Assembly (NCBI RefSeq): GCF_016900375.1
Contig: NZ_JACJKB010000010.1
Span: 1-64,000, forward strand
DNA: 64,000 nucleotides
Reading direction: 5' to 3'
Origin: Collinsella tanakaei
GTDB taxonomy: Bacteria > Actinomycetota > Coriobacteriia > Coriobacteriales > Coriobacteriaceae
The notes beneath the pieces are model-generated. The model saw only the letters and a program-made list of their open reading frames with translations. It was not told the origin of the DNA and searched no databases. Every line of letters starts with the position of its first letter. The stretch's first letter is position 1. Below are positions 13,798 through 18,721 of the stretch, piece by piece. The translations under genes were made by a program, and so were the position numbers.

Positions 13798-14133
13798 TTA
13801 CGGCGTGAAACCGGGATTGCCGCACTCGCCCACGTTGGGATCATCGTCATGGACCTTGTAAAACTTGCAGGTGCTGAAGCAGGCGCAAAAGCCATGTCCG
13901 CACTTATCGACCCCGGGGCGAACGGTTCGCGTACCCTTGCAGGCACCACCTGCAACGGAGCCGAGTTCATCGTCAGCGATCTCCTGCATGCCCTCGCCGT
14001 GAAGACGCTCGAACAGACGCTCGGCATCGCCGTCAGCAAGTTCGATACCTGCATCCTGGGCGAGCTGGGCGATCTCTTCGGCGCTCTGTGCGCTCAAAGC
14101 CAGCTCTTGCAGCTTGTTTACGGTCTCTGACAT
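13798..14133 (-). CDS. Cys-rich RiPP precursor peptide A (Nif11-like leader)
   Basis: A 111-residue peptide. The ATG at 14133 has AAGAGG six bases upstream; the longer open frame above it is not needed. Residues 1-63 are the leader: helical (LQELALSAQSAEEIAQLAQD), acidic, ending DDELGSVAGG. The 48-residue core has cysteines at 65, 78, 83, 85, 89 and 104, with CKFYK after the fourth conserved Cys. The leader is about 49% identical to that of peptide B and exactly the same length, and five of the six Cys align. The radical SAM enzyme upstream is the likely modifying enzyme. Product structure and activity are unknown. Confidence 0.85.
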   Translation of the reverse strand: MSETVNKLQELALSAQSAEEIAQLAQDAGIELADGDAERLFERLHGEGMQEIADDELGSVAGGACKGTRTVRPGVDKCGHGFCACFSTCKFYKVHDDDPNVGECGNPGFTP

Positions 14134-14253
14134 GGCTTGCCTCTTTTGAATCGCGTACCATCCGTTTCTAGCGCAATCATAAAACGTCCGATACCGCGCC
14201 GGTACACCCGGTCGACATAGAAAATGAGTAGGAGCGAACAGGCGACTTTGCGC

Positions 14254-14286
14254 ATGCAAGTTAGGGGACAGGTCCCAAACGTTCAA
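14254..14286. repeat. Palindromic repeat family A, copy 4
   Basis: ATGCAAGTTAGGGGACAGG followed by TCCCAAACGTTCA. Imperfect, and it has the ATGCAAGTT outer form also seen in copy 1. Confidence 0.75.
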
Positions 14287-14333
14287 AGGCACGTGCGCTT
14301 GGCTGACTTGAAGCCTCAAGAGGGGGGGGGCTG

Positions 14334-14516
14334 GTACCAAATCCGCGACTTTTGAGAGGGTAATCGTCCAAGTGACGCTGTGTCGCTTATCGAAATGTAT
14401 CAACCACGCTCGCTATGCGGCGTATTTCCAACTTGATTGCATAACACCGAACCCGCTTCGCGCTCAGATCAGCCCACCATTCTGGTGAGATATCTCAAAA
14501 GTCGCGGATTTGGTAC
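14334..14516. mobile_element. MITE-like element E, copy 1 (183 bp)
   Basis: Perfect 24 bp terminal inverted repeats: GTACCAAATCCGCGACTTTT plus GAGA at 14334-14357, and its reverse complement at 14493-14516. No coding content, and the interior is more AT-rich than its surroundings. A related copy in opposite orientation lies at 27654-27831. Confidence 0.8.
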
Positions 14517-14649
14517 ACCGTTATGAGCCAACCCCCTGATCAGCCTTGAAACGCCCTCGCTGACCGGGCTTCAGCGCAAAGCACGGGATCAAAGCGGCGC
14601 TCATGCAGCCAAGACAACGGGCGCTTGGTCTCACGAGCGCCAGCCACCT

Positions 14650-14682
14650 GTGAAAGTTTGGGGCCTGTCCCCTAACTTTCAC
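14650..14682. repeat. Palindromic repeat family A, copy 5, overlapping the maturase stop
   Basis: GTGAAAGTTTGGGG-CCTGT-CCCCTAACTTTCAC. The TGA inside one arm is the stop codon of the radical SAM gene (14679-14681). Confidence 0.85.
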
Positions 14683-16079
14683 TCGCAGTCGTTAATGCAG
14701 CGATAGGGCACGCCACCTGCACTGTTAAGCACCTGGGGAACCTTCTCGAGGTAGCCATCGTGGAAGAAGAGGCATTTCGCCTTGTCGGCGGCGAGAAACT
14801 CACCAGAAAGCGTGCAGGCGATGGCGCGGCAGCCACCAAGGCACAGGCGCCAGTAGGGGCACGCGGCGCACCGCTCGTTGCGCTCGAGCACCTTCGAAAC
14901 GGGCGTCGTCACGCACTCAAGGTAGGTGCCCTCGATCAGATACTCGTGCAACGGCCTCTCCTTCACGTTGCCGAGGCTGATGCCGTGCGCAGCAAACCAG
15001 CCAGACAGCTGGTTGCAGGGAGACAGCTCGCCGGTGTGCGACACGGCGATCGTGCCACGCGCGCCCTTGCAGACGGGCACGTTGTCGCGGTATCGCTCGC
15101 ACGAACCCTGCACGGGATGCACGCCGTACCAACGTCCGCGCGGGTTGAAGTACGCGAACTGCCACACGTCTACCACGATGCGCATGTCGCTCGCCGCAAC
15201 GCGCGCCATAAGCTCGAGCATCGCGTCGTAGTACTCCTTGATGTCCAGGCACATTCCGTGGGCGTTCTCCTCCCAGCGCGGTGCCTCGCTCGTGCGGATG
15301 ATGCGGATCTCCTCGACGCCGAGGTCGTCGAGCCATTTCACCGTGTCGTACATGCAATCGAGGTTTCCGCGGTGGACGTTCGTCTGCGCGCGGGTGCGGA
15401 AGCCCTTCGCGTGGCAGAGCTCGAAGGCGCGGCGGGCAAGCTCCTCGGCACCCGGCCGGTTCCTCAGCCAATCATGGTGCCCCACGCCGTCGTAGCTGAT
15501 CTTGATCTCGGGGCTGAGCCCGAGCTCATGGAACTCGTCGAGCATCGCCTCGGTGATGAAGCTGCCATTCGTATTGATTTCGGAAAGCGTCAGATGGCGC
15601 CGTGCGATCTCGCGGCAGATATCCATGAAGTGCGGATGGAGCGTCGGCTCGCCACCCGTGAGCGTGACGGCTTGGATGCCGCAGCCCTCGATCTCGTCGA
15701 GCAGCGCCAGGCACTCATCCCACGTGAACTCCTCCATCATGGGCGCGTTGTCCGCCGCCATGAAGCAATGCAGGCAGTTGAAGTTGCACTTGCCCGTAAT
15801 CGACCAGTTGATATGGGGGAAGTACCGATTGGAAAACAGGCGCAGGCGCTGCCAGTCGTCGATCCCGTCGCCCGGCTCGCACTCCTCCACAAGACCGCGT
15901 GCCATAAGGTCGCGAAGCGTCGGCGAATCCTCCACGTCGTGCTCGCCATCGCACGCGAGCATCACAAAGAACTCCTCCGGCGAAAGGCCACGTGCCTCGC
16001 GGATGCCGTCGACGTAGTACGCGCGTGGCACGAGCTTCCAGCTGCGCAGCGCTATGCAGTCGTTCAACCTGCAGTACAT
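14679..16079 (-). CDS. Radical SAM/SPASM RiPP maturase (Nif11-class)
   Basis: A 466-residue enzyme starting at ATG 16079 with AAAGGA upstream. Residues ~1-70 (YYVDGIREARGLSPEEFFVM and DVEDSPTLRDLMARGLVEE) read like a built-in PqqD/RRE domain for leader binding. The radical SAM core starts with CNFNCLHC (Cys98, Cys102, Cys105), which binds the [4Fe-4S] cluster that cleaves S-adenosylmethionine, then TLTGGEPTLHP and EINTNGS. The C-terminus is a SPASM-type Cys cluster (CNQLSGW, RCAACPYWRLCLGGCRAIA, KCLFF). Such enzymes commonly form thioether or C-C crosslinks in Cys-rich peptides. It lies 60 bp after precursor B, and its TGA stop lies in a repeat. Confidence 0.93.
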   Translation of the reverse strand: MYCRLNDCIALRSWKLVPRAYYVDGIREARGLSPEEFFVMLACDGEHDVEDSPTLRDLMARGLVEECEPGDGIDDWQRLRLFSNRYFPHINWSITGKCNFNCLHCFMAADNAPMMEEFTWDECLALLDEIEGCGIQAVTLTGGEPTLHPHFMDICREIARRHLTLSEINTNGSFITEAMLDEFHELGLSPEIKISYDGVGHHDWLRNRPGAEELARRAFELCHAKGFRTRAQTNVHRGNLDCMYDTVKWLDDLGVEEIRIIRTSEAPRWEENAHGMCLDIKEYYDAMLELMARVAASDMRIVVDVWQFAYFNPRGRWYGVHPVQGSCERYRDNVPVCKGARGTIAVSHTGELSPCNQLSGWFAAHGISLGNVKERPLHEYLIEGTYLECVTTPVSKVLERNERCAACPYWRLCLGGCRAIACTLSGEFLAADKAKCLFFHDGYLEKVPQVLNSAGGVPYRCINDCE

Positions 16080-16139
16080 GTGGCGTCCTTTCGAATGCAG
16101 CCTGTCGCCCCAAACATCATAGACGAGGCACGAGATCAA

Positions 16140-16463
16140 TTACGATTGTCTGCTGCAAATCCCCGATCCGTCCCACGCGGACATCGTATAGTACGTGCAA
16201 TCGGCACCGCACCAGGCCACATCGCCCCATATGCACCGTTGCCCCTTGTTCACGGGCATGTCGGATCTGCGGCAGCCGCCCGCGACGCCCTCAAGCTCAT
16301 CATCGGAGAGCCTCTCCGCACCCTCGCCATGGAGGTGCTCGTACAGTCCCTTCACCTCATCTTCCGTCAGGGTAAAGCCCGCCCCCTCGGCGATACCGGC
16401 AAGCTCTTCGACACTTTGCGCCTTGAGTGCCAGCTCGTAGAGCCCCCTCGCGATCTTCTCCAT
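16140..16463 (-). CDS. Cys-rich RiPP precursor peptide B (Nif11-like leader)
   Basis: A 107-residue peptide; ATG 16463 with AGGGGAG six bases upstream. Leader residues 1-63 (LYELALKAQSVEELAGIAEG then YEHLHGEGAERLSDDELEG) end in VAGG. The 44-residue core starts right at Cys64, with further Cys at 77, 85, 89 and 103 and CTYYT after the fourth. Spacing C-x12-C-x7-C-x3-C-x13-C matches peptide A (x12, x6, x3, x14). It is the first gene of the minus-strand cluster, directly before the maturase. No transporter or leader peptidase lies in the window, so export must use proteins encoded elsewhere. Confidence 0.87.
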   Translation of the reverse strand: MEKIARGLYELALKAQSVEELAGIAEGAGFTLTEDEVKGLYEHLHGEGAERLSDDELEGVAGGCRRSDMPVNKGQRCIWGDVAWCGADCTYYTMSAWDGSGICSRQS

Positions 16464-16804: not shown

Positions 16805-17032
16805 TTAACGCTCCTCGTGGTACCCGGCCCTTTCCGCACGAATGCGAACGTCACACTCCCTGCAGAAATGAGGCGGCTCGGACATCATGGATGTCTCGCA
16901 AATGTAGTCAGCCCCGCAGTTGGAGCACTTGACGTGCCAGAGCTGACCCACGAGCTTACCTCCCGACACCTGGGAGAGGTCATCGCTATCCAGGCGCTCG
17001 ACACCTTCGGGCACGCGCTTGTCGTCTGTCAT
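16805..17032 (-). CDS. Small double-glycine, CxxC...CxxC protein; possible third precursor
   Basis: A 75-residue protein; the ATG at 17032 has a strong AAGGAGG five bases upstream. Residues 1-25 end LDSDDLSQVSGG, matching the DDEL..VAGG cleavage motif of the two precursors. The rest has Cys36/Cys39 (KCSNCGAD), Cys45 and Cys57/Cys60 (FCREC), a spacing that would also suit a zinc ribbon, and a basic, charged tail. It may be a divergent RiPP substrate or a small zinc protein with a coincidental GG motif. It is on the same strand as the cluster, 341 bp upstream of precursor B. Confidence 0.7.
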   Translation of the reverse strand: MTDDKRVPEGVERLDSDDLSQVSGGKLVGQLWHVKCSNCGADYICETSMMSEPPHFCRECDVRIRAERAGYHEER

Positions 17033-17226: not shown

Positions 17227-17345
17227 CACAGGTCGCGGGCGCCGATTATATTCGCCATGAAATTCTTACCCCCGCACATCCTGCAGTGAACTGCCTCCCA
17301 TTTCTTGGACAAAGTAATAAAGTCCGAGAGATGGGAGGCCTTCTC

Positions 17346-17861
17346 ATGCCGATCGACCTTAGATGCAGGCACGACCGCGAGGTCAGGGAGCTCGCCGCTG
17401 ACATGTTCGAGTCCGGGCGGGGCTACCGCTCCGCCGCCAAGGCCCTTGGCGTCCCCGCCGAGGCTGTGAGAAACTGGCTGAAGACGTACCGCGCGATCGG
17501 AAGGGACGGGCTTCTGGCCATGGGAGGGCAGCGCGCCAGATACGACTACGAGACCAAGGTCGCCGCGGCGAGCGCCGTGGTCGACGGGGGCATGCCCAAG
17601 CCCGAGGCGATGGAGCGCTTCGGCATCGCGAGCGCCACGCCGCTGAAGCGGTGGTGCAGGCTGTACCGCGAGGGCGGGGCCGAGGCCCTGAGGCCGAAGC
17701 CCAGGGGCAGGCCCAGGGGATCGGGCGCGAAGGCGGCCCCGAAGACCCGCGAGGAGGAGCTCGAGGAGCGCGTGCGCAAGCTCGAGGCGCAGGTGGCGTA
17801 TCTAAAAAAATCGATAGCCCTGAAGGCGGAGCTGCGCTCCCGAACCGGGAGAAGGCCCTAG
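17346..17861 (+). CDS. IS3-family transposase OrfA
   Basis: About 171 residues from ATG 17346 (MPIDLRCRHDREVRELAADM); the frame is open to an earlier ATG at 17286, which overlaps the IS end. It has two helix-turn-helix units (YRSAAKALGVPAEAVRNWLK and KPEAMERFGIASATPLKRWC), a basic linker (RPKPRGRPRGSG) and a leucine-zipper-like tail (EELEERVRKLEAQVAYLKK). It binds the IS ends. Seven As at 17804-17810 near its end let ribosomes slip by -1 into orfB. Confidence 0.92.
   Translation: MPIDLRCRHDREVRELAADMFESGRGYRSAAKALGVPAEAVRNWLKTYRAIGRDGLLAMGGQRARYDYETKVAAASAVVDGGMPKPEAMERFGIASATPLKRWCRLYREGGAEALRPKPRGRPRGSGAKAAPKTREEELEERVRKLEAQVAYLKKSIALKAELRSRTGRRP
17804..17851 (+). promoter_or_regulatory. 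Programmed -1 frameshift site of the IS
   Basis: The slippery run CT-AAAAAAA (17804-17810) lies where orfA (frame of 17346) and orfB (frame -1) overlap. The perfect stem CTCCCG-AAC-CGGGAG at 17837-17851, 26 bases downstream, could stimulate slipping, although that spacing is long. Confidence 0.7.
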
Positions 17862-18721
17862 CGGTCGCCGAGCTTTCAGGGCGTGGCCACAAGCTGTCCG
17901 ACCTGCTGGAGTGCGCCGGACTCGCCAGGTCGTCGTACCACTACGCGCTCGCGCACCCGAGGAGGCCGACCAGGCCCGAGCTGCGCGGGAGGGTCGCCGA
18001 GATCTTCGGCCGGCTCCCCAACGGCGTCGGCCACCGCCAGATCGCCATGGAGCTGCGCGCCGTCGACGGGGAGCGCATAGCGGACAAGACGGTGCTCAAG
18101 ATGATGCGCGAGATGGGACTCAGGTGCGGCATCCGCCGCGAGACCGACTATCACAGGTACAACTCCTATAAGGGCGAGGTCGGCGAGACCTTCGGGAACG
18201 TCATCGGCCGCGACTTCGAGGCCGACGGCCCGTGGCAGAAGATGGGCACCGACGTCACCGAGTTCAAGCTCTCCTTCGGCAAGGCCTACCTCGCGCCGGC
18301 GTACGACTTCGGCAGCAAGGAGATCGTCGCCTGGTCGGTCTCGGAGCACCCCGACCTCGCGCAGCAGGAGGAGATGCTCGCCATGCTCGTCGCCGCGAAG
18401 CCGAGGGGCAAAGAGCCCATACTGCACTCCGACATGGGCTGGCAGTACCAGCACGCGTCCTACGTGGAGAGGCTCAGGGAGAACGGCTTCATCCAGAGCA
18501 TGTCGCGCAAGGGCAACTGCATCGACAACGGCGCGACCGAGCAGGTCTTCGGCCATATCAAGGACGAGTTCTTCCGAGGGCGCGACTGGGGCGACTTCGA
18601 GTCGTTCAAGCGCGACCTCGAAGAGTACATCGTCCACTGGAACACGAGAAGACGCCAGGTGAAGCTGAAGGGCCTGACCCCGGTCGAGTTCCGGGAGCAG
18701 GCCCTCCGGGAGGCCGCCTAG
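17810..18721 (+). CDS. IS3-family transposase OrfB (DDE catalytic part)
   Basis: About 300 residues translated as an OrfAB fusion after the -1 slip. The start given is the slip point, since no independent start is obvious. It shows the HTH_21-like region (RPELRGRVAEIFGRLPNGVG then HRQIAMEL) and the integrase fold with the DDE triad: Asp in GTDVTEFKL, Asp in LHSDMGWQYQH and Glu in EQVFGHIKDEFF. The end has RRRQVKLKGLTPVEFRE, typical of IS150-group transposases. Confidence 0.9.
   Translation: MDSPEGGAALPNREKALAVAELSGRGHKLSDLLECAGLARSSYHYALAHPRRPTRPELRGRVAEIFGRLPNGVGHRQIAMELRAVDGERIADKTVLKMMREMGLRCGIRRETDYHRYNSYKGEVGETFGNVIGRDFEADGPWQKMGTDVTEFKLSFGKAYLAPAYDFGSKEIVAWSVSEHPDLAQQEEMLAMLVAAKPRGKEPILHSDMGWQYQHASYVERLRENGFIQSMSRKGNCIDNGATEQVFGHIKDEFFRGRDWGDFESFKRDLEEYIVHWNTRRRQVKLKGLTPVEFREQALREAA

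Follow-up and report, generated by a model that had tools for sequence, protein, structure and literature searches.

Organization of the locus

The DNA analyzed here is a 64,000-nucleotide stretch of Collinsella tanakaei (positions 1 to 64,000 of contig NZ_JACJKB010000010.1, assembly GCF_016900375.1), referred to below as the window. It contains a gene for a radical S-adenosylmethionine (SAM)/SPASM enzyme located between genes for two Cys-rich peptide precursors, P0002 and P0001, all on the minus strand in the order P0002, enzyme, P0001 (Table 1). The arrangement suggests a cluster for ribosomally synthesized and post-translationally modified peptides (RiPPs), as proposed in an earlier note on this DNA that was made from the sequence alone.

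Table 1. Features in and around the putative RiPP cluster (positions are those of the window; aa, amino acids; ORF, open reading frame; IS, insertion sequence)
Feature	Position	Strand	Description
Precursor P0001	13798-14133	minus	111 aa: 63-aa leader ending VAGG and 48-aa core, 6 Cys
Enzyme-P0001 gap	14134-14678		545 bases, with palindromes of the TTTGGGGnCnGnCCC type (14265, 14657)
Perfect inverted repeat of 24 bases	14334-14357 / 14493-14516		135 bases between the arms; resembles a miniature inverted-repeat transposable element; between enzyme and P0001
Radical SAM/SPASM maturase	14679-16079	minus	466 aa, counted from an ATG conserved in relatives; starts 60 bases after P0002
RRE-like N-terminal domain	15819-16079	minus	Residues 1-87 of the maturase; assigned from the fold ranking of the separately predicted domain
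Precursor P0002	16140-16463	minus	107 aa: 63-aa Nif11-type leader ending VAGG and 44-aa core with 5 Cys
P0004, candidate third peptide	16805-17032	minus	25-aa leader ending VSGG and zinc-ribbon-like core CSNC...CREC
IS3-like element	17286-18721		Two overlapping ORFs, the basis of the IS type; lies at the insertion edge, immediately upstream of P0004

Precursor peptides and their cores

Alignment of the P0001 and P0002 leaders bears out the earlier description of two equally long leaders with the same VAGG end (49% identity), and the ORFs, strands and coordinates given for the cluster were also as described. When the peptides were searched with hidden Markov models, as that note had suggested, P0002 passed the cut-off of the Nif11-like leader model TIGR03798 (33.4 vs 32.3 bits) and P0001 fell below it. 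The double-glycine (GG) site ends each leader and is followed by a variable core, and the cores of relatives differ widely.

The Cys residues are spaced 12/6/3/14 in the P0001 core, which has one further Cys in FCAC, and 12/7/3/13 in the P0002 core, so that both share the pattern C-x12-C-x6/7-C-x3-C-x13/14-C; the aromatic pair reported after the fourth Cys is present in both translations (CKFYK and CTYYT). Two precursors are also encoded upstream of an enzyme 83% identical to that of the window at locus L061, in another family of the order. One has a P0002-type core spaced 12/8/3/14, the other a P0001-type core spaced 11, 11 and 14 that lacks the third Cys (this second ORF has no ATG at the leader start as listed, leaving its start unsure). 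The five-Cys pattern put forward earlier therefore stands for both window cores but is not fully kept in relatives. Judged from the aligned precursors, the kept frame is one of four Cys with aromatic residues adjoining the second (CIW, CVWW, CGH, CAHY) and the fourth (CTYY, CKFY, CAYF, CYY, CRFY).

A further gene in the same genome as L061 (L161), whose contig lacks the enzyme over the stretch fetched, has a core nearly identical to that of P0001. The two precursors are 80% identical over their whole length, with nonsynonymous (dN) and synonymous (dS) divergences of 0.13 and 1.05 (dN/dS about 0.13), which identifies P0001 as a constrained coding gene. The core of a P0001-like gene in genome G168 (L160) is out of frame as assembled.

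The radical SAM/SPASM enzyme

Both Pfam domains expected of such an enzyme score over their cut-offs (Radical_SAM 74.4 bits, SPASM 21.9 bits), and both motifs claimed in the earlier note are complete, the CX3CX2C cluster being C98/C102/C105 and the seven-Cys SPASM motif C337-x12-G-x4-C355 ... C404-x2-C407-x5-C413-x3-C417 ... C436. None of the equivalog radical SAM maturase models of NCBIfam was over its curated cut-off among the best 25 of 73 matching families; scores were 77.7 bits on TIGR04103 (cut-off 725) and 57.9 bits on the PapB model (cut-off 340). Comparison of the predicted structure with solved structures gave SuiB (Z 20.8), anSME (20.4), SkfB and ChlB (19.8 each), PqqE (19.7), TigE (19.0) and 5wgg (CteB; 18.2). 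Comparison with the L061 enzyme gave a dN/dS of 0.17.

Residues 1-87, folded alone with a predicted local distance difference test score (pLDDT) of 80, matched chains of lasso B1, MccB, SuiB or cyanobactin-type heterocyclases in 17 of the 24 entries listed, these four being protein types that bear a RiPP recognition element (RRE). Since Z was at most 5.5 and the best Foldseek E value 0.92, the predicted RRE-like character of the region, suggested earlier, is carried by this ranking and by no single score; Pfam gave no match on these residues and thus no RRE-type one.

Association of leaders with the enzyme

A leader profile built from nine seed rows, two of them from the window, matched the 2.48-Mb genome three times at E<=0.01, at the two precursors described here and at one site beside a gene for a paralogue 33% identical to the enzyme. 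Leaders were found in 17 of 18 enzyme-bearing genomes, some of the hits being partial (as in G904 and G913), and in none of 18 same-genus genomes without the enzyme; six of the enzyme genomes had supplied seed leaders, and with seeds excluded the count is 11 of 12. Conservation of the leader beside the enzyme in relatives' loci was a check set beforehand, and a leader lies no more than 3 kb from 36 of 67 enzymes (six of the 62 enzyme loci gave seeds), whereas 498 kb of control DNA gave no leader hit. Leader and domain matches together with this co-occurrence support the RiPP cluster at the level of sequence, and P0002 passing TIGR03798 and the profile hits beside enzymes likewise favor the Nif11-type assignment. 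The suggestion that one enzyme makes two products is supported indirectly, in that the only close family member in the genome sits between both precursors and in that both core types again occur beside one enzyme in L061.

Distribution of the enzyme family

Within the host's class, 30 of 396 genomes, the host's included, had a match to the enzyme at E<=1e-40. At E<=1e-60 there were matches in 9 of 250 genomes of the family to which G400 belongs and in 9 of 299 of that of G401, both Bacillota, with G400 and G401 counted. No match at 1e-30 was found in the 64 remaining genomes of the family of the host, and enzymes 82-83% identical to that of the window recur, with both core types, in another family of the order. 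The host genome has two other enzyme hits, the 33% identical paralogue and one of 29% identity.

A tree of 65 rows (a quick method with Shimodaira-Hasegawa-like approximate likelihood ratio support only; rows shorter than 340 aa and the duplicate L115 omitted; three rows with long branches) separates a clade of 27 rows that includes the window enzyme (clade A) from one of 38 rows that includes the 33% paralogue and the enzyme of locus L046 (clade B). Searched by pattern, CX3CX2C is present in 63 of the 65 rows, window included, the other two starting late, and the full SPASM motif in 55; some of the ten without it are truncated, and L050, L051 and L071_5057 are full-length variants. The L073 enzyme was left out of the tree on account of in-frame TGA codons: at L025/L073 (G315, contig C131) an enzyme-like frame has eight of these, either read as a residue or marking a decayed gene. 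At L010, L103, L113 and L073, enzymes of the family lie beside LanM-type synthetases with Nif11 leaders, where doubly modified peptides are possible; the cores at L103 and L113, both in clade A, have two Cys each.

Export genes elsewhere in the genome

The only Peptidase_C39 hit in the genome is an NHLM_micro_ABC1 transporter (939.6 vs 853.3 bits), which is followed by its partner ABC2 (716 vs 709.4 bits) in an operon on another contig with the order PP2C-STAS-RsbW-HlyD-ABC1-ABC2. In L114, the enzyme of which is 45% identical to that of the window, the enzyme, PP2C, STAS, RsbW and ABC1 genes lie in that order on one strand. NHLM ABC1 at >=43% identity was detected in 20 of the 62 enzyme loci, some hits being cut by contig ends, and ABC1 scored over its cut-off in 14 of 18 enzyme genomes vs 1 of 18 others (G018). 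The RsbW-like protein of the host's own transporter operon (L124:7305-7880, contig C35) ends in a leader-like tail, RLDDKELDGVVGG followed by 13 residues; RsbW-like stretches of L114 and L137 end without one.

Candidate third peptide

Neither the export operon nor P0004, the candidate third peptide, appeared in the earlier note. The start of P0004 is preceded by AAGGAGG and counterparts were detected near relatives' enzymes in L061, L116, L105, L110 and L010; the peptide matches no leader model (TIGR03798, Pfam) and is also missed by the leader profile. A regular-expression search for GG-leader ORFs yielded 90 in enzyme loci, of which 13, over six loci with the window counted, are zinc-ribbon-like with >=2 CxxC; some of these have full-length leaders near the enzyme (L061, L116). 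The 498 kb of control DNA contained one GG ORF, without CxxC pairs. Beside the transporter operon, a short peptide that would start with CTG has a start region of 32 bases that is 84% identical to that of P0004.

Proposed pathway and alternatives

Very probably, these genes of a gut-type bacterium constitute a RiPP cluster in which leader-guided cross-linking by the radical SAM enzyme is followed by cleavage at the GG site and NHLM-type export. Its products are probably at least two exported Cys-rich peptides cross-linked by the one enzyme, to judge from sequence evidence. The scheme below is built by inference, in each of its biochemical steps, on the genes, motifs, predicted folds and co-occurrence described above. 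P0001, P0002 and perhaps P0004 would be made by the ribosome and the Nif11-type leaders bound by the RRE-like N-terminal domain, as its predicted fold and the co-occurrence of leader and enzyme suggest. The CX3CX2C cluster would then cleave SAM and, with the SPASM clusters, core Cys sulfurs would be linked oxidatively to core carbons, giving thioether rings. Such rings are a common outcome for SPASM maturases acting on Cys-rich cores, and by this analogy thioether cross-linking is the likeliest chemistry of the enzyme. The NHLM-type ABC pair would cut after GG and export the mature peptides, in keeping with the GG site, the sole C39 transporter and the operon linkage in relatives, and the PP2C/STAS/RsbW-like switch probably controls export or expression. 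The weakest step is the last, in which the peptides probably serve as signals or narrow-range antimicrobials outside the cell.

A number of observations weigh against this scheme. P0001 scores 20.3 bits on TIGR03798, below the cut-off that P0002 passes, and neither precursor reaches that of Pfam Nif11. The 18 enzyme-free genomes come from a single genus, which makes the counts non-independent; for 31 of 67 enzymes the profile finds no leader within 3 kb (some lie at contig ends and some have GG peptides that the profile misses), G285 has the enzyme without a leader hit, and the leader hits of G168 are on other contigs. The whole-enzyme model, based on a five-row alignment, has a low pLDDT of 68 (predicted template modeling score 0.70). 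The transporter genes are not clustered with the precursors and enzyme in this genome, and within their operon the STAS gene is over its cut-off but the PP2C, RsbW-like and HlyD-like matches are below their curated cut-offs (HlyD 34.5 vs 156.2). Four enzyme genomes lack an over-cut-off ABC1, two as near-misses (G285 840.6, G904 826.1), one with a partial hit at a contig end (G495) and one with none (G400).

It is possible, though clearly less probable than the scheme above, that the same cluster installs carbon-carbon or other non-thioether changes (cyclophane-like links at aromatics, epimerization or splicing) and that the Cys form disulfides. This alternative is a serious one because L010, L103, L113 and L073 sit beside LanM, with two-Cys cores at L103 and L113, such that the family need not act on Cys-rich cores; the aligned precursors also have aromatics adjoining the second Cys and the fourth. 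The solved matches to the enzyme include the thioether formers SkfB and CteB besides the carbon-carbon former SuiB, so the fold does not decide the chemistry. No other feature of the present cores is as regular as their Cys, which tells against a non-thioether outcome. PlpX, a radical SAM enzyme whose cluster has NHLP/Nif11-type leaders, reportedly splices out tyramine (PMC11002830), a precedent for such changes.

It is improbable that the peptides go unmodified, as disulfide- or zinc-binding GG-leader bacteriocins, with the enzyme acting on something else. The 13 zinc-ribbon-like members among the 90 GG-leader ORFs, the short leader of P0004 that escapes the profile, and the P0001-type genes on contigs or contig parts without the enzyme (L160, L161) would fit such peptides, but leaders and enzyme come and go together among the genomes examined, and at L061 and L116 several zinc-ribbon-like cores follow full-length leaders near the enzyme. 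That the cluster is a functionless remnant of a decaying horizontal acquisition is most improbable: although it interrupts a conserved gene order beside an IS3-like element and repeats, and the P0001-type gene of G168 has its core out of frame, all cluster ORFs are intact with low dN/dS (about 0.13 for P0001 vs L161, 0.17 for the enzyme vs L061) and a matching exporter is present in the genome.

Beyond leader-guided cross-linking and NHLM export, a broader and rather unlikely proposition is that the two-clade family forms a general Nif11-leader-guided radical SAM platform acting also on zinc-ribbon-like and lanthipeptide-type cores, in which the clade of the window enzyme would install an undescribed link or metal-binding fold and one partner-switch-controlled NHLM exporter would serve scattered precursor loci.

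Repeats and origin of the cluster

The repeat-bearing gap of 545 bases suggests that P0001 may have its own promoter. Among 208 loci the 24-base inverted repeat was found only in three that overlap this place. Palindromes of the TTTGGGGnCnGnCCC type occur in the window at 416, 2379, 13577, 14265, 14657, 16666, 17201, 18763, 23331 and 27557, several of them round the cluster (17 matches on both strands with one mismatch vs 0.3 expected), and the exact TTTGGGGnCnGnCCC pattern is absent from 11 other stretches, two of them from the same genome.

Six stretches from relatives cover the site. The same-genus L170, L172 and L173 keep both flanks in order with no cluster hit, L171 and L174 have the right-hand genes only, and L169, which is a contig end, has a fragment of the IS; the gap at the site is about 0.4 kb in L172 vs 5.3 kb here, IS3-like element included. 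The dS of the enzyme to the other family is 0.56-0.70, vs about 1.7 for two neighboring genes shared with L161, which fits horizontal transfer; the cluster is an insertion at a conserved locus and has probably moved horizontally. The enzyme is 82-83% identical, vs 42-68% for the five window loci that had a hit in 379 kb of G349 (six rows, a pair of which covers both strands of a single locus, with the coding strand not settled for each). Plain vertical descent was dropped, the enzyme dS being below that of its neighbors and its identity above that of the window loci in G349; LysA, tried as a divergence baseline, gave no hit at 1e-60 in G168, G349 and G123. P0001-type genes of the other genus adjoin homologues of the same helix-turn-helix (HTH)-kinase pair as here, and given this pair homologous exchange at the site is possible and the history not simple. 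Carriage on phages or plasmids was also rejected: neither collection gave a match at E<=1e-20, and the 88 pattern stretches in viral_contigs included no relative.

Relation to known systems and significance

The combination of Nif11 leader, radical SAM maturase and NHLM export is of a kind known from papers of 2010-2014. Nif11-like leader clusters with radical SAM proteins were listed for Eggerthella lenta in 2014 (PMC4289311), and the cluster of Eggerthella lenta VPI 0255 (Elen_2949/2953/2954; Letzel et al., 2014, PMC4289311) has Nif11-type leaders, radical SAM proteins and a peptidase transporter, as here. Locus L046 is almost surely that locus, since its three precursors have the printed lengths (130 = 71:59, 122 = 71:51 and 121 = 71:50). 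Its enzyme is a 31% relative of that of the window, in the other clade, its 71-aa leaders are followed by unrelated cores, and, unlike the window, it has NHLM ABC1 within the stretch fetched. Nif11-class maturases (TIGR04064, named in PMC3023750; TIGR04103, rSAM_nif11_3) resemble the present enzyme in that a radical SAM/SPASM protein is the only candidate maturase beside Nif11 leaders and in the C-x2-C-x5-C-x3-C motif, but the window enzyme is far below the TIGR04103 cut-off and TIGR04064 is not among the best 25 of the 73 matching families. NHLP/Nif11 precursors with NHLM export (Haft, 2010, PMC2887384) share the leader family, the TIGR03796/03797 transporter and the proposed cleavage on export; azole- and lanthionine-forming clusters are described there, and the terms radical, phosphatase and anti-sigma do not occur in the text searched.

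SuiB, SkfB and CteB have a common fold with the enzyme (radical SAM, SPASM and N-terminal domain) at 11-16% identity over the alignments shown. The leaders of their substrates differ from those here. The C-x3-D motif of the PapB/freyrasin ranthipeptides (PMC11002830) recurs once in P0002 (CIWGD) and as CWWND/CWGTD in clade-B L111 and L110, is absent from P0001 and is not kept in the L061 cores, and was dropped as a general rule for these cores. Precursors of the clade-B enzymes L111, L110, L059 and L054, some in arrays, contain CWWND/CWGTD/CWSND/CFNDD, reminiscent of C-x3-D ranthipeptides, and other clade-B precursors (L041, L075, L119, L121, including the host's own paralogue locus) have repeated CxC in Gly-rich cores.

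No published work on this enzyme clade or these cores was met in literature listings by title and abstract start, and enzyme family and peptide cores look uncharacterized. The analysis ties an enzyme family of Coriobacteriia and Bacillota to NHLM export and a PP2C/STAS/RsbW-like switch, and locates zinc-ribbon-like leader peptides near these enzymes. With one enzyme, two natural cores on similar leaders and a second natural pair in L061, the cluster offers a minimal co-expression target for studying how a single radical SAM maturase copes with differing Cys frames.

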